Part shown: piece by piece, positions 9,992-22,366 of the stretch
Numbering within the stretch: the stretch's first letter is position 1
How the letters are laid out: every line of letters starts with the position of its first letter
Source: a bacterium
Lineage (GTDB): Bacteria > UBP6 > JAFGXH01
Reading direction: 5' to 3'
Assembly (NCBI GenBank): GCA_027064085.1
Contig: JAMOQH010000010.1
Coordinates: 1 to 22,366 of the forward strand
Length of the DNA stretch: 22,366 bases
The notes under the pieces: model-generated
Told to the model about the DNA's origin: nothing
Seen by the model: the letters and a program-made list of their open reading frames with translations, nothing else
The model's database searches: none
Program-made: the position numbers and the translations under genes

Positions 9992-11770
9992 TTGGATAAA
10001 ATATTAATAAATAATAAATTCTATGAAACGAGGGTTGCTTATATCAAGGATAATTCATTATTTTACTATTTTAATGAAAATAAATCAGATATATCAATTG
10101 TTGGAAATATCTATAAAGGAAAAGTTACACGAGTATTATCTGGTCTTCAATCAGCATTTATTGATATAGGGCAAGATAAGGCAGCTTTTTTACATATGAG
10201 TGATTTATGGTATCAACATATTAGTAGAAGCGATTTAGATAAACCAATTCCCGCTGATACAGATATTTCTGATTTAATTTCTGTTAATGATGAACTATTA
10301 GTTCAAGTAAGTAAGGACCCTATTTCAACTAAAGGTCCAAGAGTTGTAACTCTTTTATCTATTCCAGGAAGATTTCTAGTTTTTTTCCCACTAGGTAACA
10401 AAATTGGTATATCTAAAAAAATAGATTCAGAAAACGAGAGGACAAGATTAAAAAGAATAATCAATAATTATAAACCTAAGGATACTGCTTTTATAGTAAG
10501 AACCGCCGCCGAAGGGGTAAGTAGTGATTTACTTGAAAATGATATGAGAATTTGTATGCAACAATGGATTAATATCGTTAAAAGGCAATCAAGCTTAAAG
10601 GCTCCTCAATTACTCTATGAAGATTTAATTCTTCCTTTAAAAATAACAAGAGATATGCTGAATAACAATGTTTCAGAAATGATAATTGATGACGAAGAAC
10701 TCTATAAAAAAATTATTAATTTCGTTGAAGAATTTATGCCTTCCCAAAAGAGCAAAGTTAAATTATATGATAATAATGAATTAGAACTTTTTAAAAGATA
10801 CAATTTAGAAGGAAAAATAAAAAAATTAGACAATAAATCTGCTTCACTAAAATCTGGGGGAAATATAATTATAGAGCAAGTTGAAGCGATGACTGTAGTT
10901 GATGTAAACACTGGAAGTTTTGTTGGTAAAAATTTACATCATGATGATACTATATTACGAACAAATAAAGAGGCAATGAGTGCTGTCGCCGAACAAATAA
11001 GACTTAGAAATATTGGTGGAATAATAATTGTTGATTTTATTGATATGAAATTAGATTCTGATAAGGAAATTCTTATAAAATATGCAGAAGAGATTACAAA
11101 AGATGATAGAGCTAATGTTACTATTCATGGTATTACAAGGCTTGGATTAATGCAAATCACAAGAAAAAGAATTTCTGATTCTCTAAGAAGAAGTTCTACT
11201 ATTACATGTTCTGTTTGTAATGGCAGGGGAACAGTTAAAACTCATGAAACAATAACTCATGAGATATATCAAAAAATAATAGAAATGGATAAATCATATT
11301 TAAGAAATAAAATTATTGAAGTATCTGCTGAGGGTGAGTTATTAAAGTATATAAATAGTTACCAAAGTAGTAATCTAAATAAACTCAAAAAACAATTTTA
11401 TTTAGATAATATTGTTTTAAAAAAGAATGGCAAGTTAATTCATGGGCAATTTAATATTGTTGTAAAGCAAAAAGAAATTTCTGAAATTAAAGAGCTTAGT
11501 AATGATAAAATAATAGCTCCAGTTAATGAAAAGCTTATTGTTCCTGCTAAAGAGAATGATCCTGTTATTGTTAATAATGAAGAGGCCGTAGAAGTACCTA
11601 AAATAAAAACGGCCAAAAAGGTGGTAAAACCAAAATCTGTAAAAACCGTAAAAAAAACTACTACTAAAAAGGTAACGACTAAAAAAACAACTACTAAAAA
11701 AGCAGTAGTTAAAAAGGCAAAAGTTACTAGAAAAGTCAAAGACAATGTTAACATTGAGGAGAAAATATGA
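9992..11770 (+). CDS. rng: RNase E/G-family endoribonuclease (RNase G-like) with Lys/Thr-rich C-terminal tail
   Basis: A single-strand-specific endoribonuclease that matures rRNA and starts mRNA decay in the cytoplasm. The 592-aa protein has an S1 domain (about 37-120; GNIYKGKVTRVL, FIDIGQDKAAFLH), a 5'-sensor/RNase H-like region, and the DNase I-like catalytic core. VVDVNTGSFVGK (302-313) and IIIVDFIDMK (344-353) supply the metal-binding aspartates D304 and D348. CSVCNGRG (406-413) is the CxxC zinc-link that holds the dimer. The core ends by about 495, which is RNase G-sized. Residues 538-583 form a low-complexity tail of KTTTKK-type repeats with no counterpart in E. coli RNase G, resembling histone H1-like tails. 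The start is TTG with AGGTGG (9982-9987) upstream; the next gene overlaps by 4 bp (ATGA). Choosing rng rather than rne rests on length. Confidence 0.92.
   Translation: MDKILINNKFYETRVAYIKDNSLFYYFNENKSDISIVGNIYKGKVTRVLSGLQSAFIDIGQDKAAFLHMSDLWYQHISRSDLDKPIPADTDISDLISVNDELLVQVSKDPISTKGPRVVTLLSIPGRFLVFFPLGNKIGISKKIDSENERTRLKRIINNYKPKDTAFIVRTAAEGVSSDLLENDMRICMQQWINIVKRQSSLKAPQLLYEDLILPLKITRDMLNNNVSEMIIDDEELYKKIINFVEEFMPSQKSKVKLYDNNELELFKRYNLEGKIKKLDNKSASLKSGGNIIIEQVEAMTVVDVNTGSFVGKNLHHDDTILRTNKEAMSAVAEQIRLRNIGGIIIVDFIDMKLDSDKEILIKYAEEITKDDRANVTIHGITRLGLMQITRKRISDSLRRSSTITCSVCNGRGTVKTHETITHEIYQKIIEMDKSYLRNKIIEVSAEGELLKYINSYQSSNLNKLKKQFYLDNIVLKKNGKLIHGQFNIVVKQKEISEIKELSNDKIIAPVNEKLIVPAKENDPVIVNNEEAVEVPKIKTAKKVVKPKSVKTVKKTTTKKVTTKKTTTKKAVVKKAKVTRKVKDNVNIEEKI
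11603..11740 (+). repeat. Lys/Thr-rich low-complexity repeat region in the ribonuclease tail
   Basis: Imperfect repeats based on AAA-ACT-ACT-ACT-AAA-AAA encode KTTTKK/VTTKK/TTTKK units at residues 551-570, flanked by AKKVVKPK and VVKKAKV. The composition is unlike the rest of the gene, and the reading frame is kept open to the stop at 11770. Confidence 0.7.
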
Positions 11771-13342: not shown

Positions 13343-13930
13343 TTGAAAGAATCCGTTGAGCTTTTAAAAGCTAATAAAGTAATAATATTTCCTGCTGAGA
13401 CTTTATATGGGTTTTCTTGTTCTTTTTATTCTGATAAAGCAATTAATAGAGTTTTTAAAATAAAAAAACGAGAAAATACTAAACAGTTTATTGTTCTTGT
13501 TAAATCTTTTGAAATGGCTAAAGAAATCGTTAAAATTGAAAACTATAAATTAAGTTTTTTAAAAAAATATAATTATTGGCCTAATCATTTAACGATTATT
13601 TTTAATTCTAAAATAGATAAATATAAAACTTTAGCTATAAGATATTCAAACTCTAAATATATTACTAAATTATTTGAAGAGATTGATTTTCCTATTATTT
13701 CAACTTCTGTAAATTATTCAAATGAACCTATAATAACTAATATAAAAGATATAATAATGGAGTTTAATACACAAGTTAATTATATTAATACTTCTTCTCC
13801 TGATGGTAATGGTAGCGCTTCAACGATTATAGATTTTAGTACTAGGGAGCTTAAATTGATAAGAGAGGGAGAAGTTCCATATAGTAAAATAAAAGAAGAT
13901 TACAATGAATTCAGAAATAACAATAAATAA
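13343..13930 (+). CDS. tsaC: Threonylcarbamoyl-AMP synthase (TsaC/YrdC/Sua5 family)
   Basis: Makes threonylcarbamoyl-AMP from threonine, bicarbonate and ATP, the first step of the t6A37 modification of ANN-decoding tRNAs. The 195-aa protein is the short TsaC form without the Sua5 C-terminal domain. Conserved YrdC elements are present: IIFPAETLYGFSC (14-26), KIKKREN (39-45, the KxR motif), QFIVLV (48-53), WPNHLTIIF (79-87, the W-P-(G/N)-x-(L/V)-T signature), LAIRYSNS (97-104), ISTSVNYSNEP (119-129) and SASTIIDF (158-165), ending with REGEV. The start is TTG, preceded only by a weak AGGGT. The gene overlaps trmN6 by 26 bp, supporting a joint tRNA-modification operon. The remaining t6A genes are not in the window. 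Confidence 0.93.
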   Translation: MKESVELLKANKVIIFPAETLYGFSCSFYSDKAINRVFKIKKRENTKQFIVLVKSFEMAKEIVKIENYKLSFLKKYNYWPNHLTIIFNSKIDKYKTLAIRYSNSKYITKLFEEIDFPIISTSVNYSNEPIITNIKDIIMEFNTQVNYINTSSPDGNGSASTIIDFSTRELKLIREGEVPYSKIKEDYNEFRNNNK

Positions 13931-14645
13931 ACTTTTTAAAGAGCAAATAATTATAAAACAGTATCAAAAAGGATATCGATTTTCTATTGATTCTCCAATT
14001 TTAGCTGATTTTGTATATGAAGATAATAATAAAAATACTTACCTTGAAATAGGTACTGGAAGTGGGATTATTCCTATAATGATGTCTTTTTTTGATAAAA
14101 AAAATGACTGTATTAAAAAGATTTATGCTGTAGAGTTACAAGAAAGTCTTTGTAAACTTGCAAAAGAAAACTTTAAGCTAAATGAAATTAAAAATATAGA
14201 ATTGCTTAATGAAAATATTAAAAACATAAAGAAACTTATTGAGCCAAATATTATTGATGTGGTTTTTAGCAATCCTCCATTTTTTGAAATTTCCAAGGGG
14301 AGAGTAAATCCTAATAATGAAAAATTCATAGCTAGGCATGAGGTTCATTTGAATCTTTTTGAGTTAATAAAAATATCTAATTATCTACTCAAAGCTAATG
14401 GAAAACTAAAAGTAATTTATCCTATTGAAAGATTGAGCCAGATTTTAATTGCTTTAGAAAAATATTCCTATGGTATTTCAAAGATAGTAATAATTTATCC
14501 TAAAAAAGGAGAAAATGCTAAATTAATAATGATTGAAGCAATAAAAGGTAAAAAATCTATTGAAACCAAAGTTTTACCACCTCTTTATATTAATAAAAAT
14601 AATGAAGAATATAGCGATTTTGTTAATGGGATATTGAAATTATAG
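13905..14645 (+). CDS. trmN6: tRNA1(Val) A37 N6-methyltransferase-like protein (TrmN6/YfiC family)
   Basis: The family transfers a methyl group from SAM to N6 of A37 in tRNA1(Val) in E. coli. This 246-aa protein shows the family's N-terminal pattern QYQKGYRFSIDSPILADFV (19-37), the SAM motif LEIGTGSGIIPI (47-58), an acidic strand end AVELQ (75-79) and the adenine-N6 catalytic motif NPPFF (123-127). Next come RHE (residues 143-145) and a C-terminal stretch with IIYPKKGENAKLIMIEAIKG, typical of YfiC-type enzymes. The start overlaps tsaC by 26 bp; no strong ribosome-binding site is visible, so translation is probably coupled. The exact substrate tRNA in this organism cannot be read from sequence. 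It is the last gene of the 9516-14645 operon; no hairpin terminator follows. Confidence 0.88.
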   Translation: MNSEITINKLFKEQIIIKQYQKGYRFSIDSPILADFVYEDNNKNTYLEIGTGSGIIPIMMSFFDKKNDCIKKIYAVELQESLCKLAKENFKLNEIKNIELLNENIKNIKKLIEPNIIDVVFSNPPFFEISKGRVNPNNEKFIARHEVHLNLFELIKISNYLLKANGKLKVIYPIERLSQILIALEKYSYGISKIVIIYPKKGENAKLIMIEAIKGKKSIETKVLPPLYINKNNEEYSDFVNGILKL

Positions 14646-14671
14646 AATAGTGGTATGCAATTAATGTTTAC

Positions 14672-14756
14672 TGTAAAGAATTGTTGCGTTATCGTATTTA
14701 TGTGAAAAATCAAGTTGTTATATTGTGATTATTCTTATGTTGTAAAGAAATGTTGC
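14672..14756 (+). repeat. Pair of 16-bp direct repeats upstream of the PqqD operon
   Basis: TGTAAAGAATTGTTGC (14672-14687) recurs as TGTAAAGAAATGTTGC (14741-14756), 15 of 16 bases identical, 69 bp apart start to start. They lie in the 207-bp gap between trmN6 and the PqqD gene. The spacing is about 6.6 helical turns. They could be operator copies for a regulator of the downstream operon. No regulator gene is adjacent. Confidence 0.7.
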
Positions 14757-14770
14757 ACCCTTGAAAACTC

Positions 14771-14782
14771 TAAAAGCTTTTA
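14771..14782. promoter_or_regulatory. Perfect 12-bp palindrome TAAAAGCTTTTA
   Basis: A 12-bp perfect palindrome 15 bp downstream of the second 16-bp repeat and 25 bp before a TATAAT. It could be a dimeric-regulator site or part of the promoter region. AT-rich palindromes of this size do occur by chance. Confidence 0.35.
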
Positions 14783-14806
14783 AAATGCTTAGAAAAAGTT
14801 GGAAAA

Positions 14807-14812
14807 TATAAT
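14807..14812 (+). promoter_or_regulatory. Candidate -10 box of the PqqD/ATP-grasp operon
   Basis: A perfect TATAAT lies 40 bp upstream of the ATG at 14853. No good -35 hexamer stands 16-18 bp before it (that position reads AATGCT). The promoter would need an activator or a different -10, which fits the repeat pair upstream. An AGGAGG ribosome-binding site is at 14843-14848. Confidence 0.35.
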
Positions 14813-14852
14813 GCTGTAATTTATGTGTTGATTGGTTTTCTTAGGAGGAAAC

Positions 14853-15098
14853 ATGGAAGATTATAGCAAATTATCAAGTTTAGCAATTAGTGATAGTGGA
14901 TTTATCTTTAATCCATTAAATGGAGATAGTTTTACTCTAAATCCAACAGCTAAACTTATATTAAAGAATTTAAAAGAAAATAAAAGTAAATCAGAAATTT
15001 TAGATATTATTACTGAAAAATTTGATGTTGATAAAAATGATGCGGAAGTTGATTTCGATAATTTTATTTCACAGTTATCAATGTATAAATTGGTTTAG
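14853..15098 (+). CDS. PqqD-like small protein (RiPP-recognition-element type fold)
   Basis: An 81-aa protein with the PqqD-family pattern. Short N-terminal strands LAISDSGFIFNP and DSFTLNPTAKLILKNL are followed by a helix (KSKSEILDIITEKFDVD) and a C-terminal helix (VDFDNFISQLSMYKLV). PqqD proteins bind a peptide substrate, usually a RiPP leader, and present it to an enzyme. No radical-SAM enzyme or obvious precursor peptide is encoded next to it. An acyl-carrier Ser in a DSL context is absent, so it is not an ACP. I chose ATG 14853 because AGGAGG (14843-14848) precedes it; a TTG at 14832 would add seven residues and put the ribosome-binding site inside the gene. The ATP-grasp gene starts 9 bp downstream. 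The role as carrier or adaptor for that ligase is inference. Confidence 0.83.
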   Translation: MEDYSKLSSLAISDSGFIFNPLNGDSFTLNPTAKLILKNLKENKSKSEILDIITEKFDVDKNDAEVDFDNFISQLSMYKLV

Positions 15099-15107
15099 GG
15101 GATAAAA

Positions 15108-16142
15108 ATGAATTTAAATATTGCCATTACCGGAATAAATGCTACTGATAATCCTGGGCCAGGTTCTTCTGTTGTTAGAGGAATAAGATTTAATAAAGAA
15201 TTTAATGGAAGGATAGTTGGCCTTGCTTATGATACTATGGATCCCGGTATTTACCAAAAAGGGCTTGTTGATATCACTTATATGATACCATATCCTTCAC
15301 AAGATCCTGAAGCTATATTTGAAAGAATTAAACAAATTAATGATATTGAAAAAATTGATGTTTTAATTCCTACATTAGATGCAGAGCTTTTAACCTATAT
15401 TAGTTTAGAAGAAAAATTAAAAAAAATAGGCATAAAAATGTTTTTACCAACAAAAGAAAGTTTTAATATGAGAAGTAAAAATATTTTAGCTGAATTTTGT
15501 GAAAAAAATGGAATTTCTGCGCCTAAAACTATTTCTGTTAGTTCTGTTGATGAAATTTATAAAATGGAATTAAATTATCCTGTTTATGTTAAAGGAATCT
15601 TTTATGATGCTTACATTGCCTATTCATATTCTGAAGCTGCCGCAGCATTTTATAAGATTTCTGCTAAATGGGGTGTTCCTATTGTAATTCAGGAGTTTAT
15701 TAATGGGGAAGAGTTTGATGTAGTTGCTCTTGGAGATGGAAAAGGTGCAACTATAGGTGCTGTACCTATGAAAAAAATGTCTTTAACTGAAAAGAAGAAA
15801 GCTTGGGCTGGTGTTTCTATAGATAATAAAAATTTGATAGATATTACTAAAAAATTAGTTAAAGCTCTAAAATGGAGAGGGCCAATGGAAGCTGAGATTA
15901 TGGTTGATCATAAAAGTTCAAAAATGTATTTGATTGAAATAAACCCTAGGTTTCCAGCATGGAGTATTTTAGCACCTTGGAGTGGGCAAAATTTACAGTA
16001 TTCACTTGTTGAGTTAGCCTTAGGTAAAAATGTTGAGCCATTTGAAAATTATAAACATGGAAAATTATTTATAAGATATTCTATGGAGGTAATGGCAGAT
16101 ATAAAAGATTTGGAACAATTAGTAATGAATGGATTTTTGTAG
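15108..16142 (+). CDS. ATP-grasp ligase (CarB-like carboxylate-amine ligase of unknown substrate)
   Basis: ATP-grasp enzymes activate a carboxylate as acyl-phosphate and join it to an amine, thiol or other nucleophile. The 344-aa protein has the three-part layout. The N-terminal pre-ATP-grasp Rossmann domain (1-115) carries NPGPGSSVVRGIR (15-27) and DVLIPTLDAEL (84-94). The central lid domain has YPVYVKGIF (157-165, ATP-binding K162) and IVIQEFINGEEFDVVAL (192-208). The C-terminal metal site has GPMEAEIMVD (258-267) and YLIEINPRFPAW (274-285) with E277 and N279. Both magnesium ligands are intact, so it should be active. A ribosome-binding site AGGGGAT overlaps the PqqD stop. The next gene, a PLP decarboxylase, starts 9 bp downstream with AGGAGAT. 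The substrate is unknown; biotin-carboxylase- or CarB-specific domains are absent. Confidence 0.9.
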   Translation: MNLNIAITGINATDNPGPGSSVVRGIRFNKEFNGRIVGLAYDTMDPGIYQKGLVDITYMIPYPSQDPEAIFERIKQINDIEKIDVLIPTLDAELLTYISLEEKLKKIGIKMFLPTKESFNMRSKNILAEFCEKNGISAPKTISVSSVDEIYKMELNYPVYVKGIFYDAYIAYSYSEAAAAFYKISAKWGVPIVIQEFINGEEFDVVALGDGKGATIGAVPMKKMSLTEKKKAWAGVSIDNKNLIDITKKLVKALKWRGPMEAEIMVDHKSSKMYLIEINPRFPAWSILAPWSGQNLQYSLVELALGKNVEPFENYKHGKLFIRYSMEVMADIKDLEQLVMNGFL

Positions 16143-16151
16143 GAGATAAGA

Positions 16152-17507
16152 ATGAAAGAAAGATATGAATCCCCAATAATAACAAAAAATATAAGTGGTT
16201 TTTCTAATAAATTTGGAATGTCTTCTAAATTGGATATTCTTGACAATATTGATGGTGTTAGAGTTGAAAAATTATTATCAGAGTATGGAAGTCCTTTATT
16301 TGTATTTTCAGAAAAAACAATAAGAAAAAGATTTCAAAGATATTTAAATGCGTTTAAAAGATATTACCCTAAAACTCATTTTGCTTGGTCTTATAAAACA
16401 AATTATTTACAAGCTATTGCTTCTATTTATCATAGTGAAGGAAGTATTGCTGAAGTTGTTTCTGATTTTGAATATGAAAAAGCTAAGAAATTAGGGGTTG
16501 ACCCTAAAGATATTATTTATAATGGTCCTTTTAAAAAAGAAGATAGTTTAAGAAAAGCATTAAGAGATGGTTCTAAAGTTCATGTTGACCATTTTGATGA
16601 ATTATCAACTATTGAAAAATTAGCAGATGAATTAAATATTAAACCTAAAATTGCAATTAGAATTAATATGGATACGGGAATTGCTCCTCAATGGAGTAGA
16701 TTTGGTTTTAATTATGATAATGGAGAAGCTGAAAGAGTTATTAAAAGAATACATAGAAATGGAAAACTAATTTTAAATGGTTTGCATACACATATAGGTA
16801 CTTTTGTTCTTTCTCCTGATGCATATAAAAATGCACTAGCAAAATTAATTAATTTATATAATTTAGCTCAAGAGAAATATGATTTTAAAATTGAATATTT
16901 AGATTTAGGAGGGGGTTTTCCTTCTAAAAATAGATTAAAAGCTCAATATTTACCATCAGCAATTGCTATTCCTTCTATAGAGCAGTATGCAGAAAAAATT
17001 ACAGATTATTTACTTGATAATTTTAGTGTGGAAGATGGGCCTGATTTGTATTTTGAAACAGGACGAGCATTAATTGACGAAGCAGGATATTTATTATCAA
17101 CAGTTCATGCTACAAAAAGAATGCCCGATACAAGAAGAGCTGTAATTATTGATGCAGGTGTGAATTTATTGTTTACTTCATTTTTTTATGATATAAAGAT
17201 ACTTGCAACAAAATCTTATCATGGGACTATGGAAAATAGTATTATTTATGGTCCTCTTTGTATGAATATTGATGTTATTAGAGAAAGTATACAATTGCCT
17301 TACTTAACTCCAGGTGACAACTTAGTGTTACATCCCGTTGGAGCCTATGGAGTAACTCAATGGATGCAATTTATTCAAATGAGGCCTGCTGTTGTATTAA
17401 TAACAGAAAATAAAAAGGTATTAAAAATAAGGCGAGCTGAAAATATTGATGATGTTGAAAATCCTGAAATTTTACCTGAGCAATATGCTCTAGTAGAGGA
17501 GATTTAA
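16152..17507 (+). CDS. PLP-dependent decarboxylase of the LysA/ornithine-decarboxylase (fold type III) family with altered substrate pocket
   Basis: A 451-aa fold-III decarboxylase or related enzyme. The alanine-racemase-like barrel starts with SPLFVFSE (47-54). The PLP lysine is K82 in FAWSYKTN (77-84), followed by HTHIGT (212-217), LDLGGGFP (250-257) for phosphate binding and FETGRALIDEAG (301-312). The C-terminal domain has a GPLC motif (367-370) and GAYGV (397-401) with the cofactor-site Tyr399. Diaminopimelate decarboxylases read CESxD here and ornithine decarboxylases CDGxD. This protein reads C-M-N-I-D (370-374), so the acidic residue after Cys370, which contacts the substrate's distal amine in ODC, is methionine. 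A substrate without that amine, or one carried on a protein, is possible. It lies between the ATP-grasp gene (9 bp) and the urea-transporter fusion (2 bp). Not a housekeeping LysA on this evidence. Confidence 0.87.
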   Translation: MKERYESPIITKNISGFSNKFGMSSKLDILDNIDGVRVEKLLSEYGSPLFVFSEKTIRKRFQRYLNAFKRYYPKTHFAWSYKTNYLQAIASIYHSEGSIAEVVSDFEYEKAKKLGVDPKDIIYNGPFKKEDSLRKALRDGSKVHVDHFDELSTIEKLADELNIKPKIAIRINMDTGIAPQWSRFGFNYDNGEAERVIKRIHRNGKLILNGLHTHIGTFVLSPDAYKNALAKLINLYNLAQEKYDFKIEYLDLGGGFPSKNRLKAQYLPSAIAIPSIEQYAEKITDYLLDNFSVEDGPDLYFETGRALIDEAGYLLSTVHATKRMPDTRRAVIIDAGVNLLFTSFFYDIKILATKSYHGTMENSIIYGPLCMNIDVIRESIQLPYLTPGDNLVLHPVGAYGVTQWMQFIQMRPAVVLITENKKVLKIRRAENIDDVENPEILPEQYALVEEI

Positions 17508-17509
17508 AT

Positions 17510-19603
17510 TTGAATACTACTATATTGAAAGATTTTACAAAAGCTAGTTTATTAAGTTATTCACAGATTTTCTTTTCATATAGTCAGATACTGGGTTTGT
17601 TATTGTTATTATTAACATTTTTTTCTCCATATATAGGTTTATTTGGTTTACTAGGCGTTATATTGTCAAATTTGTTGTCTTACCTATTTAATTACAATAA
17701 AGAGCACATACAAAAAGGATACTTAGGCTTTAATTCATTGTTAATGGGAATGGAAGTTGCATATTTTTTTAAGCCTAGTCTTGCAACTTTTATTTTATTA
17801 TTTACACTTATTGTTTCTACACTATTTTTAACTATAGTATTAAATCATTTATTTTATTTGTATCTAGGGGTGCCTTCATTAACTCTACCTTTTGTATCTA
17901 TTAGTATTATTCTTTATTTTGCTACTTATAACTACACAGGTTTAACTTTAAGAGATAGTCATGATTTAGCTTTTCATAGTTTTAATCTTTTAAGTAATTA
18001 TCCCTCCATTGAGATGTTTTTTAAGTCTTTGAGTATAATATTTTTTCAAAATAATGTCTTAGTAGGTATTTTAATATCAGTTATTATGTTTTTTTATTCA
18101 CCAATAATGCTGTTTTTATCTTTAATATCATTTTTTTCCGGGCTAGGTTTTTACAGTATTATGGGGGGATCACTTGTTGGTGTAGAAAATGCTTTTGTTG
18201 GGTTTAATTTTATATTTTCTGGTATTGCGGTAGGTGGTATATTTTTTGTTTCTTCTATTTCATCTTATACTTTGATGATATTTACAGTATTAATAACGGC
18301 ATTGGTGTCTTCTTCTATAAAAACATTTGTTATTTTTTATGGAATGCCTGTATTCGCATTACCATTTAATTTAGTTATTTTTATGATATTAATTGCTTTT
18401 AAGCAGAGGGGAAGGGATAATTTTCCTAAAATTGTTGATTTCGTGCCTGGAAAACCAGAAGATAACTTGAATTTTTATAATAAAAATATAAAAAGATTTG
18501 GTTCAAACTATATTAATAAAAATTTAGTTTTACCAATAAAAGGAATTTGGAAAATTTCTCAAGGTGCAGATGGTAAAGAAACTCATAAAGATAGATGGAG
18601 ATGGGCTATTGATTTTCAAAAATTAAATTATGACAAGAAGGTTTATAATAATAGTGGTGATAGTTTAGATGATTATCCAACTTATAAAGATAATGTTTAT
18701 TCACCAATAGATGGTGTAGTTGTTTTAATTGAAAATAAAATTGAAGATAATAAAATAGGTGATGTAAATATTAAGCATAATTGGGGAAATTTTATTATCA
18801 TTGATGCAGGTTTTGGTATTTATGTTAAATTAGCTCATTTATTAAAGGGGAGTATTAAAGTTAATATTAACCAAAAAGTTAAAATTGGTGAAGAATTAGG
18901 GAAGGTAGGTAACTCAGGAAGGTCTTCTTATCCTCATTTACATTTTCAGGTTCAAGCTATGCCTATTGTAGGGGCAGATACGATAAATTTTGCATTTTCT
19001 AATTATATTTTACATAATAAAGATAATTCAGAGATAAAGATAAAGGAATTACCCAAAACTAATGATATTATTGAAAACTTAGAACAAGATAATAGATTGA
19101 GTGATGTTTTTAATTTATATATTAATAGAGAATTTACTTATAAATATAATAATGAAGAAGAAGTTGTTAAAGTTGATATTGATTTTTATGGAAGAATGTT
19201 TTTACTTTCTAATAATGGTGCTAAGTTATATTTTTCAAAAACAGACAAAATTTTCTATTTTTTAGATTTTGAGGGGCCTAGAAATTCTGTATTATATGAG
19301 ATTTATTTAATGATTCCTATGGTCGTTTTACAGTATAAAGAGAATTTAAATTGGTCTGAATTATTATATTTTTCTCCAAGTGGAATATTAAAAAACTATA
19401 TTAGTTTTTTATATTCATTTATACATTCGCCATATAAAAAGTTTAAGCTAAAATATGGTAAGAAAGTTAAATTTAATGGCAAATTATCTTACTTAATATA
19501 TTCCAATGATAATAAGTTAATTTTCAGTGAAGAAAACTTCTTGCTAGGAGTAAAAAGAGGAGATGATATGATTTTAGAGCAAATTAATAAGGAGGAATTG
19601 TGA
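17510..19603 (+). CDS. Urea-transporter (UT) domain fused to an M23-type peptidase domain
   Basis: The 697-aa protein has two parts plus a tail. Residues about 10-297 are very hydrophobic and carry the two related UT half-repeats: GYLGFNSLLMGMEVAYFF (70-87) and GVENAFVGFNFIFSGIAVGG (224-243). UT proteins are channels for urea or similar small amides. Residues about 340-482 are an M23 (LytM-like) domain with AIDF (366-369), VYSPIDGVVV (396-405), KLAHLL (440-445), GNSGRSSYPHLHFQV (467-481) with H443, H476 and H478. The first ligand motif HxxxD reads R-W-A-I-D, so the usual first zinc His is not in place. The last 200 residues form an unrecognised beta-rich tail. Start TTG 17510 has AGAGGAGA upstream. 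Basic residues (KQRGR, 298-302) right after the last helix hint that the M23 domain could face the cytoplasm. UT-M23 fusions exist in other bacteria without known function. Confidence 0.85.
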   Translation: MNTTILKDFTKASLLSYSQIFFSYSQILGLLLLLLTFFSPYIGLFGLLGVILSNLLSYLFNYNKEHIQKGYLGFNSLLMGMEVAYFFKPSLATFILLFTLIVSTLFLTIVLNHLFYLYLGVPSLTLPFVSISIILYFATYNYTGLTLRDSHDLAFHSFNLLSNYPSIEMFFKSLSIIFFQNNVLVGILISVIMFFYSPIMLFLSLISFFSGLGFYSIMGGSLVGVENAFVGFNFIFSGIAVGGIFFVSSISSYTLMIFTVLITALVSSSIKTFVIFYGMPVFALPFNLVIFMILIAFKQRGRDNFPKIVDFVPGKPEDNLNFYNKNIKRFGSNYINKNLVLPIKGIWKISQGADGKETHKDRWRWAIDFQKLNYDKKVYNNSGDSLDDYPTYKDNVYSPIDGVVVLIENKIEDNKIGDVNIKHNWGNFIIIDAGFGIYVKLAHLLKGSIKVNINQKVKIGEELGKVGNSGRSSYPHLHFQVQAMPIVGADTINFAFSNYILHNKDNSEIKIKELPKTNDIIENLEQDNRLSDVFNLYINREFTYKYNNEEEVVKVDIDFYGRMFLLSNNGAKLYFSKTDKIFYFLDFEGPRNSVLYEIYLMIPMVVLQYKENLNWSELLYFSPSGILKNYISFLYSFIHSPYKKFKLKYGKKVKFNGKLSYLIYSNDNKLIFSEENFLLGVKRGDDMILEQINKEEL

Positions 19604-20841
19604 TATTAATATATTTTCTATTGCTATTTCAAAATTATAGTGAGCAAGATTATGTAGCTGAAATATCTAAAACAAAGGATATTTCTAAAGTAGAAACTAT
19701 TTATCAAGAAGCTAATAAATTATATCCAGAAAGTTATAATATTAATTTAAATACTGCTTATAAATACTTGTTATTAAAAAAATATAAAAAATCTTATGTT
19801 TTGTATAAAAAATCTTATGTTATTTATCCTGCATTTGATGCACTACTTGGTTTGACCTATACACAAGTGGAGTTGAATAAATTCAAAGAATTATTGAAAG
19901 TGACAAGTACATATAAATATAAAAATAAAGAGCTTGAGAAATGGATATACCTAAGGCGTTCTTATGCATATTTAAGGCTTGAAAACTATGATAATGCTAT
20001 AATAGAAGCAAACAGGGGATTAAAAAAATATCCTGATTTTAAAGAACTAATCAAAAATAAAAAATATGCCTTAAAAATGAAACCTAGACTTTTAGTTGAT
20101 ATTATCCCTATATGGGGAATGGTAAATTATAAAAATACCGATAATAAGATTTCTTATAGTTATTGGGGGGGAGTTGTATATTCTAGATATGGAGCTTATA
20201 ATTTGGATTTAGGATATACGCAAGCTACAATAGAAAATCAAGACGAAACATTAATAGAAAATAATTTAGACTTTGGAATAGGATATAATAAAAATTATAA
20301 TACTTATTTCCACCTTAAAAAGATATTTTTAGATTCTAGTGATGCAATAATCCCCTATTTACATTTAGGTTATAATTTTAAAAAATTGAGTCTTATTACG
20401 GCTTTTTCTGTATCGTATTATGAATACTTAAGTAATTTGGTTTATCAAGGGGGATTGTATTCATATTTTTATTTATTTAATAAAAAAGTTATTCCTTCAT
20501 TAGGGCTTGGCTATAAATATTTAAAAAGAGATAAGAATACCTCGCTTCCATACTTTGAGATAGGATTAAATTTATACTTTATAGAAAATTTAGGAATAAA
20601 AACATTATTTAGATATGGAGAGCATAGTTATTTCGTTTCTTATGGAGGAATAGTGTATAGTTCACTTGATGATGTTAATTGGATGTTTGAGGGAGGAATC
20701 GATATTAAGTTATCAGACTTTACGGTAAGTCCTATTTATAGATACTATTCTATGAATATACCTTTTTCTAGTGGGCAAATGGGGAAGAAAAATACAAGTT
20801 CAAAATCATTTTTTACAGTAGTTTTAGGTTATAAGTTTTAA
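19600..20841 (+). CDS. TPR protein with C-terminal outer-membrane beta-barrel (YaiO-like)
   Basis: A 413-aa protein starting with a short hydrophobic segment (1-10), probably a minimal signal. Residues about 15-160 are TPR-like helices, including NLNTAYKYLLLKKYKKSYVLYKKS, LRRSYAYLRLENYDNAI and NRGLKKYPDF. From about 165 to the end come alternating amphipathic strands rich in Tyr and Gly (SYWGGVVYSRYG, YNLDLGYTQA, YLHLGYNF, PSLGLGYKY, YFEIGLNLYF, SPIYRYYS). The sequence ends VVLGYKF, with the terminal Phe expected for BAM-inserted barrels. The TPR-plus-barrel order resembles YaiO-type outer-membrane proteins. GTG 19600 overlaps the previous stop by 4 bp (GTGA) and has GGAGGA just upstream. It would put an outer-membrane component in the same operon as the inner-membrane UT-M23 protein. 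Confidence 0.78.
   Translation: MILIYFLLLFQNYSEQDYVAEISKTKDISKVETIYQEANKLYPESYNINLNTAYKYLLLKKYKKSYVLYKKSYVIYPAFDALLGLTYTQVELNKFKELLKVTSTYKYKNKELEKWIYLRRSYAYLRLENYDNAIIEANRGLKKYPDFKELIKNKKYALKMKPRLLVDIIPIWGMVNYKNTDNKISYSYWGGVVYSRYGAYNLDLGYTQATIENQDETLIENNLDFGIGYNKNYNTYFHLKKIFLDSSDAIIPYLHLGYNFKKLSLITAFSVSYYEYLSNLVYQGGLYSYFYLFNKKVIPSLGLGYKYLKRDKNTSLPYFEIGLNLYFIENLGIKTLFRYGEHSYFVSYGGIVYSSLDDVNWMFEGGIDIKLSDFTVSPIYRYYSMNIPFSSGQMGKKNTSSKSFFTVVLGYKF
19783..19821 (+). repeat. 21-bp-period tandem duplication in the TPR region
   Basis: The 18-mer TATAAAAAATCTTATGTT at 19783-19800 recurs identically at 19804-19821. The 21-bp period is seven codons, giving YKKSYVL then YKKSYVI. It lies in a helix of the second TPR, so the helix has been extended by two turns. 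Confidence 0.8.
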
Positions 20842-20850
20842 GGAGTATTT

Positions 20851-21468
20851 ATGAAGAAATTATTATTAATATTATTGTTATTAACAGCAAGTTTATTTTC
20901 TGCTGATTTAACAGATTATCAAGAAAATTATTTTAAGAGTTTTACTCTTGAGGAAAATAAAAAATATGATGAAGCAATAGAACTATTGGAAGCCATTTAT
21001 CCTAAATATAAATATGATTATGAGCTTAATTTAAGGTTGGGTTGGTTAAATTATACAAATAAAAAATATCAAAAAAGTATAGAATATTTAAAAAATGCAA
21101 ATAATATTCAAAAAAACTCTATCGAATCATTAAATATGATATTATTGCCATATACCGCATTGAAAGATATTAAAAATGTAAAAAAATATGCTTCACTTGT
21201 AATAAAAAAATCTCCTGCAAATTATTATGCATTAATTAGATTGGCTTATGCTTATTATTCTGTTGAAAAATATAAAGAAGCATTGCATCAATATAAAGTG
21301 TTAATTTCCTTTTTTCCCAGCGATACAAGTATTAAACTAGGATTAGGATCAACATATTTAAAATTAAAAGACTTTGTTAATGCTCAAAAATACTATTTGG
21401 AAATTTTAAAAGTTTCACCATATCATGAAACTGCTTATAAGGGATATTTAGCTACAGTAAAAAAATAG
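20851..21468 (+). CDS. Secreted tetratricopeptide-repeat protein
   Basis: A 205-aa protein with a clear Sec signal (hydrophobic 4-16, cleavage after LFSA at 18), so it is periplasmic or surface-exposed. The mature part consists of TPRs. Recognisable units are ENKKYDEAIELLEAIYPKY, YELNLRLGWLNYTNKKYQKSIEYLKNA, YYALIRLAYAYYSVEKYKEALHQYKVLISFFP and KLGLGSTYLKLKDFVNAQKYYLEILKVSP, with the typical W/L-G-Y-A-F-A-P positions. TPRs act as protein-binding scaffolds. It starts 9 bp after the TPR-barrel gene, with AAGGAG as ribosome-binding site, and is the last gene of the PqqD operon. It probably assists the barrel protein or the product's passage across the periplasm, by position only. Confidence 0.85.
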   Translation: MKKLLLILLLLTASLFSADLTDYQENYFKSFTLEENKKYDEAIELLEAIYPKYKYDYELNLRLGWLNYTNKKYQKSIEYLKNANNIQKNSIESLNMILLPYTALKDIKNVKKYASLVIKKSPANYYALIRLAYAYYSVEKYKEALHQYKVLISFFPSDTSIKLGLGSTYLKLKDFVNAQKYYLEILKVSPYHETAYKGYLATVKK

Positions 21469-21579
21469 CCTGAGTATAAATATTATTGATGAAGTTTGTG
21501 ATTCCTCGTTTGTTCTTTACAAGCCATTTATTTTATCTTTTACTATGTTAATCTCTTTGTAATCTCATAAAAACTACAT

Positions 21580-21594
21580 ATTACGAATTGTAAT
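21580..21594. other. Short inverted repeat ATTAC-GAATT-GTAAT in the 189-bp gap before the nuclease gene
   Basis: Two perfect 5-bp arms flank a 5-bp spacer within 21469-21657, the gap between the TPR gene and the Rpn-like gene. It has no U-tract and is not a terminator. It may be an operator or chance. Two 7-bp copies of TAATCTC (21549-21555, 21560-21566) lie just upstream. No gene, tRNA or terminator is visible in this gap. Confidence 0.25.
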
Positions 21595-21613
21595 TAAATA
21601 AAATTTTCTCTAC

Positions 21614-21642
21614 TTGCACATTTAAATAAAAGAAGTTATACT
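21614..21642 (+). promoter_or_regulatory. Strong sigma-70-type promoter of the Rpn-like nuclease gene
   Basis: TTGCAC (21614-21619), a 17-bp spacer and TATACT (21637-21642) come close to the consensus. Initiation is expected at about 21648-21650, which is where the AGGAGGT ribosome-binding site (21648-21654) begins. The ATG follows at 21658. The message would thus have an extremely short 5' leader. Confidence 0.65.
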
Positions 21643-21657
21643 AAAATAGGAGGTCAA

Positions 21658-22366
21658 ATGGTGAAAAATAAGGATAAAAATAAAATAGAAAACCGTTATG
21701 ATAAAATCTTAAAAGAGCTTTTAGATAATAAAATATTAATGAAACAATTAATTACAGGATTCATTAATGAAGATTGGGTTAAAAATATAGATTTTAGAAC
21801 TTTAAAAAAAGAAAAAACAGATTTTTTATCAGAAGACTTAAAAGAATTTAGAAAAGATTTACTTTGGAGTGTTAAACTTAAAGGCAATAAAATTTATTTT
21901 TATATTCATATAGAATTTCAATCACTACCCGATAGGAAAATGCCTTTTAGATTTTTAATTTATGATAGCTTATTGCATATTGACATACTAAAAAATAGAA
22001 ATAAGAATGATAAAGATAAAAAATTACCATTTATTTTACCTATATTATTTTATATAGGAGAGACTAAGTGGAATTTTGAATTTGATTTAACTAAATTAAT
22101 AGAACAGCCATTTGATAATGCAATAAATTATATAGCTAAATTTGATATTTATAAAATAATGTTAAATGAAAAGAGTTTAAAAGACTTAAAAGCAATAGAT
22201 AATTTATTGAGTAATATTTTAGCAACGGATAATAAAGAAATAAATCAGGAAGACTTAGATGAAATAATATTAAAAATAAAGCAAATATTATCAGGTTATG
22301 ACAAAGAAAAAGAATTAATAATGCTTGATAAAATTAATAAATTTGTTAAATTAATATCAAGTGATA
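21658..22366 (+). CDS. Rpn/YhgA-like PD-(D/E)XK nuclease ('transposase' family), 3'-truncated by the window edge
   Basis: The open frame runs 236 codons to the end of the window without a stop. The N-terminal half matches the RpnA/YhgA-like family (PF04754 type), recombination-promoting DNA endonucleases once annotated as transposases. RKDLLWSV (65-72) supplies the metal-binding D67. YIHIEFQSLPDRKMPFR (82-98) supplies E86 and Q88, the family's E-x-Q variant of the E-x-K motif. LPFILPILFYIGETKW (123-138) matches the LP-x-VLPIVLYNG-xxxW segment. The catalytic residues are intact, so the visible part is not a pseudogene. The C-terminal helical region continues past the edge. It has its own strong promoter and perfect AGGAGGT and is not part of the PqqD operon. 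Such genes usually occur in many copies and move between genomes. Confidence 0.88.
   Translation, partial: MVKNKDKNKIENRYDKILKELLDNKILMKQLITGFINEDWVKNIDFRTLKKEKTDFLSEDLKEFRKDLLWSVKLKGNKIYFYIHIEFQSLPDRKMPFRFLIYDSLLHIDILKNRNKNDKDKKLPFILPILFYIGETKWNFEFDLTKLIEQPFDNAINYIAKFDIYKIMLNEKSLKDLKAIDNLLSNILATDNKEINQEDLDEIILKIKQILSGYDKEKELIMLDKINKFVKLISSD

Follow-up and report, generated by a model that had tools for sequence, protein, structure and literature searches.

A conserved six-gene bacterial cassette with an RRE leader motif on the N-terminal tail of its decarboxylase

Six consecutive genes of the window, which is the whole 22,366-nucleotide stretch of DNA analyzed, almost certainly form one conserved system, and they seem to represent an undescribed system that builds a small amide-type molecule and handles it at both membranes. 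The parts belong to known families, and their combination and the presence of an RRE leader motif on an enzyme appear to be new. The openly accessible literature yielded no paper that describes this combination of genes, in agreement with the first-pass annotation, which knew of no characterized pathway with these genes. The favored reading, with a rough probability of 0.55, is that an RRE-scaffolded complex of the ligase and the decarboxylase yields an omega-acylated amine, which is handled by the envelope half of the cassette.

Gene order and distribution of the cassette

The six ORFs occupy positions 14853-21468 of the plus strand with consecutive gaps of +9, +9, +2, -4, and +9 bp, so the coordinates agree with the layout first annotated (gaps of -4 to +9 bp), and the 207-bp leader described there as repeat bearing does contain one 16-bp direct repeat. 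The features are as follows.

14672-14687 and 14741-14756, plus strand: two copies of the 16-bp direct repeat, in the leader 14646-14852
14853-15098, plus strand: PqqD-fold protein, a discrete YxxP-type RRE (PF05402, 47.8 bits; cut-off, 23.4)
15108-16142, plus strand: ATP-grasp ligase of the PRK12767 / carbamoyl-phosphate-synthase-like type (ATP-grasp_3, 37.1 bits; cut-off, 23.2)
16152-17507, plus strand: PLP decarboxylase of the alanine-racemase fold (LysA-fold; Orn_Arg_deC_N, 122.3 bits; cut-off, 23.4)
16152-16217, plus strand: N-terminal tail of the decarboxylase, residues 1-22, with box 1 YESPII (RRE motif) and box 2 ...NKFG
17510-19603, plus strand: UT-M23 inner-membrane fusion protein (Pfam, AlphaFold2, Foldseek)
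17543-18397, plus strand: UT-fold channel domain of UT-M23 (UT, PF03253, 183.3 bits; cut-off, 25)
18533-19009, plus strand: M23 domain of UT-M23, predicted to be cytoplasmic (M23, 55.5 bits; cut-off, 28.7)
19010-19600, plus strand: conserved beta-rich C-terminal region of UT-M23 (AlphaFold2 secondary structure)
19600-20841, plus strand: outer-membrane TPR-barrel protein (AlphaFold2, Foldseek, VIA-align)
20851-21468, plus strand: small TPR protein with a signal-peptide-like N-terminus (TPR_2, 46.5 bits; Pfam)

The leader repeat reads TGTAAAGAA[T/A]TGTTGC, with the two copies 69 bp apart, and is a possible operator. No Rfam family matched positions 13900-22366, and promoter-like sites in the leader were no more numerous than in shuffled sequences. 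An anti-phage defense reading was rejected, with zero matches of the six proteins to the PADLOC models. Directly 3' of the cassette, an Rpn/YhgA-like gene (PF04754; 21658-22365, plus strand) is truncated at the contig end.

Distant carriers were found by scanning genome contigs with the decarboxylase, and the cassette was present in at least four phyla, the window's own included, which adds a conserved multi-phylum system to the known repertoire. All six genes in the window's order were found in a Chitinophagales MAG and the first four in an Oligoflexia MAG, while in a Nitrospira lenta MAG the barrel and TPR genes lay 5' of PqqD. Recurrence in distant phyla was the check proposed in the first-pass annotation for a single system, and the linkage is above chance because the block was found again in distant genomes. 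Unlinked neighbors in relatives were to speak against it; in the sister genus (G001, L019/L022), all six genes were together on one strand despite swapped halves (UT-M23, barrel, TPR, PqqD, ATP-grasp, and decarboxylase).

Whole-genome searches were made with UT-M23, the query being the window protein for the window's phylum and an alignment for the other groups. Full UT-M23 proteins were found in 22 of 396 genomes from the order of the Chitinophagales record, 10 of 368 and 4 of 395 from the phyla of the Oligoflexia and Nitrospira records, respectively, and 2 of 28 from the window's phylum; additional matches in the last two phyla consisted of UT alone or M23 alone.

The order PqqD, ATP-grasp, decarboxylase, and UT-M23 was kept in 32 of 39 loci (window counted), several of which are closely related and hence non-independent, and many of the genomes are MAGs. 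It was on one strand outright in 31 loci, and the 32nd (L024) was counted after allowing for an over-long ORF call. The remaining seven were one permuted locus (L022), three cut by contig ends, two without the first half locally, and one decayed fragment. In most loci the small TPR gene was a conserved neighbor of the other genes. G937, one of the two without a local first half, has a split cassette, with its ATP-grasp gene on a different contig. Genome G452 (L086) showed the variant order barrel, UT-M23, and TPR, and no ATP-grasp gene was found in its assembly, which may be incomplete; the envelope half may thus exist there without the biosynthetic half. Pairwise distances of the four families across the 32 loci correlated with r of 0.87 to 0.93, as expected under co-inheritance.

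Viral carriage was dropped, as neither UT-M23 nor the decarboxylase retrieved a viral relative when used as a query. On plasmids, the matches were limited to remote LysA-type enzymes and to UT or M23 domains in separate proteins, and the two plasmid decarboxylase neighborhoods checked, from Halorussus and Streptomyces, were without the cassette. On the Streptomyces decoyicus plasmid (L120:3677-6721), a same-fold decarboxylase has an acyl carrier protein and a hypothetical protein beside it and an MMPL transporter at a greater distance; the group may be a BtrK-like carrier pathway. Contig DYRY01000130.1 (L026/L115), labeled Anaeromyxobacter dehalogenans, shares a decarboxylase fragment with contig C241 of G002, a genome from the window's family. 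It retains only the 80-residue end of the cassette decarboxylase, hence a decayed cassette, and is probably a mislabeled or contaminant record.

The PqqD protein and the decarboxylase tail

In genome mining, an RRE is taken as a sign that a ribosomal peptide pathway is present. The closest solved proteins to the cassette PqqD were the lasso RREs TbiB1 (E 8e-11) and TfuB1 (E 4e-10). Discrete RREs bind leaders with the motif [Y/W]xxPx[L/V/I/F/A], and in LppB, residue N33 fixes the proline kink, D70 forms a hydrogen bond with the tyrosine of the leader, and F74 packs against the proline (PMC13381572). These residues align with N30, D67, and F71 of the cassette PqqD, which were kept in 33/33, 32/33 (one Glu), and 33/33 sequences, respectively.

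A matching motif, overlooked in the first-pass annotation, was found at the start of the decarboxylase (MK-x-x-Y-E-x-P-x-I...G-x-x-N-K-F-G), whose fold begins near residue 33. The tail of about 22 residues follows the pattern [Y/W]xxPx[I/L/V]...KxG, resembles the tags that mark peptide antibiotics, and is not covered by the alignments with the solved relatives. The [Y/W]xxPx[I/L/V] part was present in all 35 intact cassette decarboxylases (34 with Y and one, L084, with W), against a background of 6 out of 466 other long ORFs from the same loci with the broader motif within their first 30 residues. Conservation was concentrated in two boxes, Y5, E6, P8, and I10 and then K20, F21, and G22, with variable linkers between them; P8 and G22 were kept in 26/26 and Y5 and K20 in 25/26 sequences of alignment A10, K20 being replaced by Pro in L025.

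A separate motif-bearing small ORF near the cassette was absent from 32 of 33 loci, and the sole one, in the remaining locus, was inside a transposase-like fragment; for motif-bearing small ORFs in these 33 loci, a separate RiPP precursor gene was therefore rejected. With the leader motif on the tail, the RRE residues kept, and no separate precursor of this kind, the simplest reading is that the cassette PqqD docks on the decarboxylase tail, which is probable. The motif on the enzyme would explain the PqqD protein with no need for a precursor peptide of its own. It suggests a use of RREs outside RiPP pathways, in which the RRE binds the tail of an enzyme; if true, stand-alone PqqD/RRE genes without precursors would be read differently. 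A second PqqD/RRE gene was observed in the window's genome on contig C179 (L021, about 10030-10291, plus strand), flanked by a gene for a very long protein rich in cysteine and one for a lipoprotein-like protein.

Simple docking does not explain why box 2 (KxG) is conserved. A reading in which the tail is a substrate carrier takes up this point: the RRE would present the tail, the ATP-grasp enzyme would add an amino acid (e.g., gamma-linked glutamate) at KxG, the enzyme would decarboxylate the tethered residue, and M23 would free the product or the tail at the channel. The two boxes with variable linkers (P8 and G22 in all sequences, K20 in all except one), the fact that no other precursor or carrier protein was found around the cassettes, the conserved metallopeptidase domain, and the precedent of BtrK acting on carrier-bound glutamate (PMC7857480) are consistent with it. 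However, such a tail modification is without a known case, box 2 may equally be a docking or active-site element, and the Pro of L025 replaces the very lysine concerned, so this reading is considered unlikely. Its specific form, with the enzyme as its own carrier in cis or across a dimer and release by M23 at the channel mouth, is a little more doubtful; if true, it would amount to a RiPP-like pathway without a precursor peptide. The favored reading keeps the tail as a docking site.

The envelope proteins

The AlphaFold2 model of UT-M23 (pLDDT 87.5) comprised a complete UT fold and an M23 fold. The UT domain matched dvUT with a Foldseek TMt of up to 0.86 and 3k3f with Z of 36.6, and UTs have 10 TM helices with pseudo-twofold symmetry (PMC10541013). 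The modeled M23 domain has the M23/LytM fold (Z about 15), and its residues H359 and D368 (H-x8-D), H443, and H476-x-H478 were all invariant (38/38). The beta-rich C-terminal region was barely covered by structure matches.

The first-pass annotation had implied a periplasmic M23 and a small, urea-like amide as cargo, and neither proposal was borne out. In UT proteins, the number of TM helices is even and both termini are cytoplasmic; no membrane helix was found to separate UT from M23, and the stretch that follows the last TM helix is positive (6.5 K/R versus 3.1 D/E), with a concordant contrast in loop charges. UT homology and charges therefore favor a cytoplasmic M23 domain, which we regard as likely and which is unusual. 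The outer filter positions of dvUT and UT-A2 are E187 and Q231, respectively (PMC4357013). Among 38 homologues, the position of dvUT E187 was occupied by A (26), S (4), T (3), G (2), and I, V, and W (1 each), and by Glu or Gln in none, so urea is not to be assumed as the cargo. The fusion challenges the roles usually assigned to UT and M23 domains.

The same topology bears on a cell wall system, in which a periplasmic M23 would cut peptidoglycan peptides, the enzymes would modify a peptide with DAP or lysine that is inserted into the wall or salvaged from it, and the UT domain would be a membrane anchor or a recycling channel. The M23 fold is nearest to murein peptidases and LytM-domain regulators with its active residues intact, and the decarboxylase ancestry is LysA-like. 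However, the established cytoplasmic C-terminus of UTs and the charges around the TM helices favor the other side for the domain, and proteins matching the cassette M23 occur in haloarchaea, which are without murein; this system is quite improbable. The haloarchaeal M23 proteins were plasmid matches (H45, H51, H52, H59, and H64) with 29-35% identity to the cassette domain.

The TPR-barrel protein was modeled by AlphaFold2 from 27 aligned sequences (pLDDT 85.7, pTM 0.58), with a predicted TPR solenoid at about residues 1-152 and a 14-strand barrel at about 164-413. No Pfam family matched the barrel part, the gene having a weak TPR match alone. The best Foldseek match was BcsC (E 2.9e-8), and in VIA-align the barrels of CymA, OmpG, PelB, and BcsC scored Z of 15-17, tied by BamA and others, so that the match points to a general class and a TPR part plus an outer-membrane barrel is the only safe label. 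The barrel had been called YaiO-like, a label that no family match supports, as no YaiO model was among the Pfam and NCBIfam matches. The small TPR protein is presumably periplasmic. The earlier proposal that the cassette has inner- and outer-membrane parts stands.

The enzymes, the proposed pathway, and known systems

In the decarboxylase, the PLP lysine K82 and the catalytic C370 were invariant. The sequence GPLCMNID replaces the Cys-Glu loop of LysA, with C370-M371 in 26/26 enzymes and Cys-Glu in 1twi and in the control L028, the one clean LysA of that alignment. The closest solved enzyme was the N-citrylornithine decarboxylase 7kh2 (322 bits, versus 232 for LysA 1twi), which has Cys-Met at the same place. 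SbnH, AcsE, MccE, and BtrK decarboxylate amino acids that are acylated, modified, or bound to a carrier, and they form one polyamine-unrelated group with FigC (PMC7857480). By analogy, the distal end of the substrate may be acylated, and an amino-acid-derived product, as first proposed, is supported. The ATP-grasp protein scored 95 bits against NF009405, under the cut-off, and K162, Q195, E202, E261, E263, E277, N279, and R281 were invariant (n = 34).

Given this closest solved enzyme, a siderophore or polyamine-amide pathway would make an N-acyl diamine akin to the rhizoferrin intermediate N-citrylputrescine for metallophore export. The six genes are, however, without an NIS synthetase and a TonB-type receptor (Pfam), and the FslC model NF041039 gave 235 bits against a cut-off of 500, so this pathway is very improbable.

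An ordinary LysA with unrelated neighbors, a lysine-biosynthetic enzyme, can hardly be meant: although no other full-length LysA-fold protein was found in the window's genome or in the sister genome (G001/G028), the cassette enzymes scored 212-234 bits with the LysA model TIGR01048 (233.7 for the window enzyme; cut-off, 297.9), the Cys-Glu loop is replaced in all 26, the six-gene linkage is conserved, each of three distant genomes encodes, in addition to its cassette enzyme (212-229 bits), a separate true LysA (369-544 bits), three cassette-free phylum mates (G003, G016, and G023) likewise gave no LysA match, and no DapB C-terminal domain was found in the window's genome. LysA identity was rejected on the model score, the loop, and the separate LysA. 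The refuting possibility raised earlier, that this is the organism's only LysA, thus fails on the distant genomes, even though the enzyme is the sole full-length homologue in its own genome. The lysine/DAP pathway of the window's genome is apparently decaying or different. A 90-residue LysA remnant adjoining parA/parB was seen on its contig C139 (L020:4714-4986, minus strand).

The preferred reading, the scaffolded ligase-decarboxylase complex, starts from what was computed, namely, linkage, domains, conserved catalytic residues, the tail motif, and matching RRE residues; docking, the complex, the order of reactions, the side of M23, and export are what we infer. PqqD would bind the YxxPxI tail and hold the decarboxylase in a complex that probably includes the ATP-grasp ligase. 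The ligase would join a carboxylate and an amino acid to an omega-acylated or carrier-bound amino acid, from which the decarboxylase would strip the alpha-carboxylate, as FslC/FigC do on N-citrylornithine and BtrK on glutamyl-BtrI. This class of reaction, ligation and then decarboxylation to an omega-acylated amine, is moderately favored by analogy. The product would meet UT-M23. The M23 domain, which probably faces the cytoplasm, may bind or cleave an intermediate attached to a peptide where the channel opens, and the small product may pass through the altered UT pore. The TPR-barrel and TPR proteins would carry it across the outer membrane in the manner of TPR-plus-barrel exporters. Export is somewhat preferred to import. 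It is hard to accept that an acylated amine leaves through UT, since proteins of this family are passive channels that conduct very small molecules.

Among known systems, the RREs TbiB1, TfuB1/FusB1, LppB, and PbaB1 share with the cassette PqqD the fold, a sequence relationship, and the leader-binding Asn, Asp, and Phe. The lasso and LPP RREs likewise have a [Y/W]xxPx[L/V/I] ligand in the same operon, but theirs is a short precursor peptide, whereas the cassette motif is the N-terminus of a PLP enzyme, and the six genes are without the lasso protease or cyclase.

FslC/FigC (7kh2), SbnH, AcsE, MccE, and BtrK have the same alanine-racemase fold with the catalytic Lys and Cys as the cassette enzyme, and FigC also its Cys-Met substrate loop. 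In contrast to FslC/FigC, the cassette enzyme adds the RRE-leader-like tail, scores about half the FslC model cut-off, and is paired with an ATP-grasp ligase instead of an NIS synthetase. BtrJ and BtrK of butirosin biosynthesis are a pair of ATP-grasp ligase and decarboxylase of the same fold, as in the cassette, but the carrier-protein domain of that pathway is absent from the six genes (Pfam).

The complete UT fold is common to dvUT, UT-B, and the cassette protein, which differs by the fused M23 and beta-rich domains and by a filter residue that is mostly Ala. BcsC and PelB have a TPR solenoid followed by an outer-membrane barrel, as does the cassette protein; in comparison, its TPR part is short, 14 strands are predicted, and the cassette is without a polysaccharide synthase.
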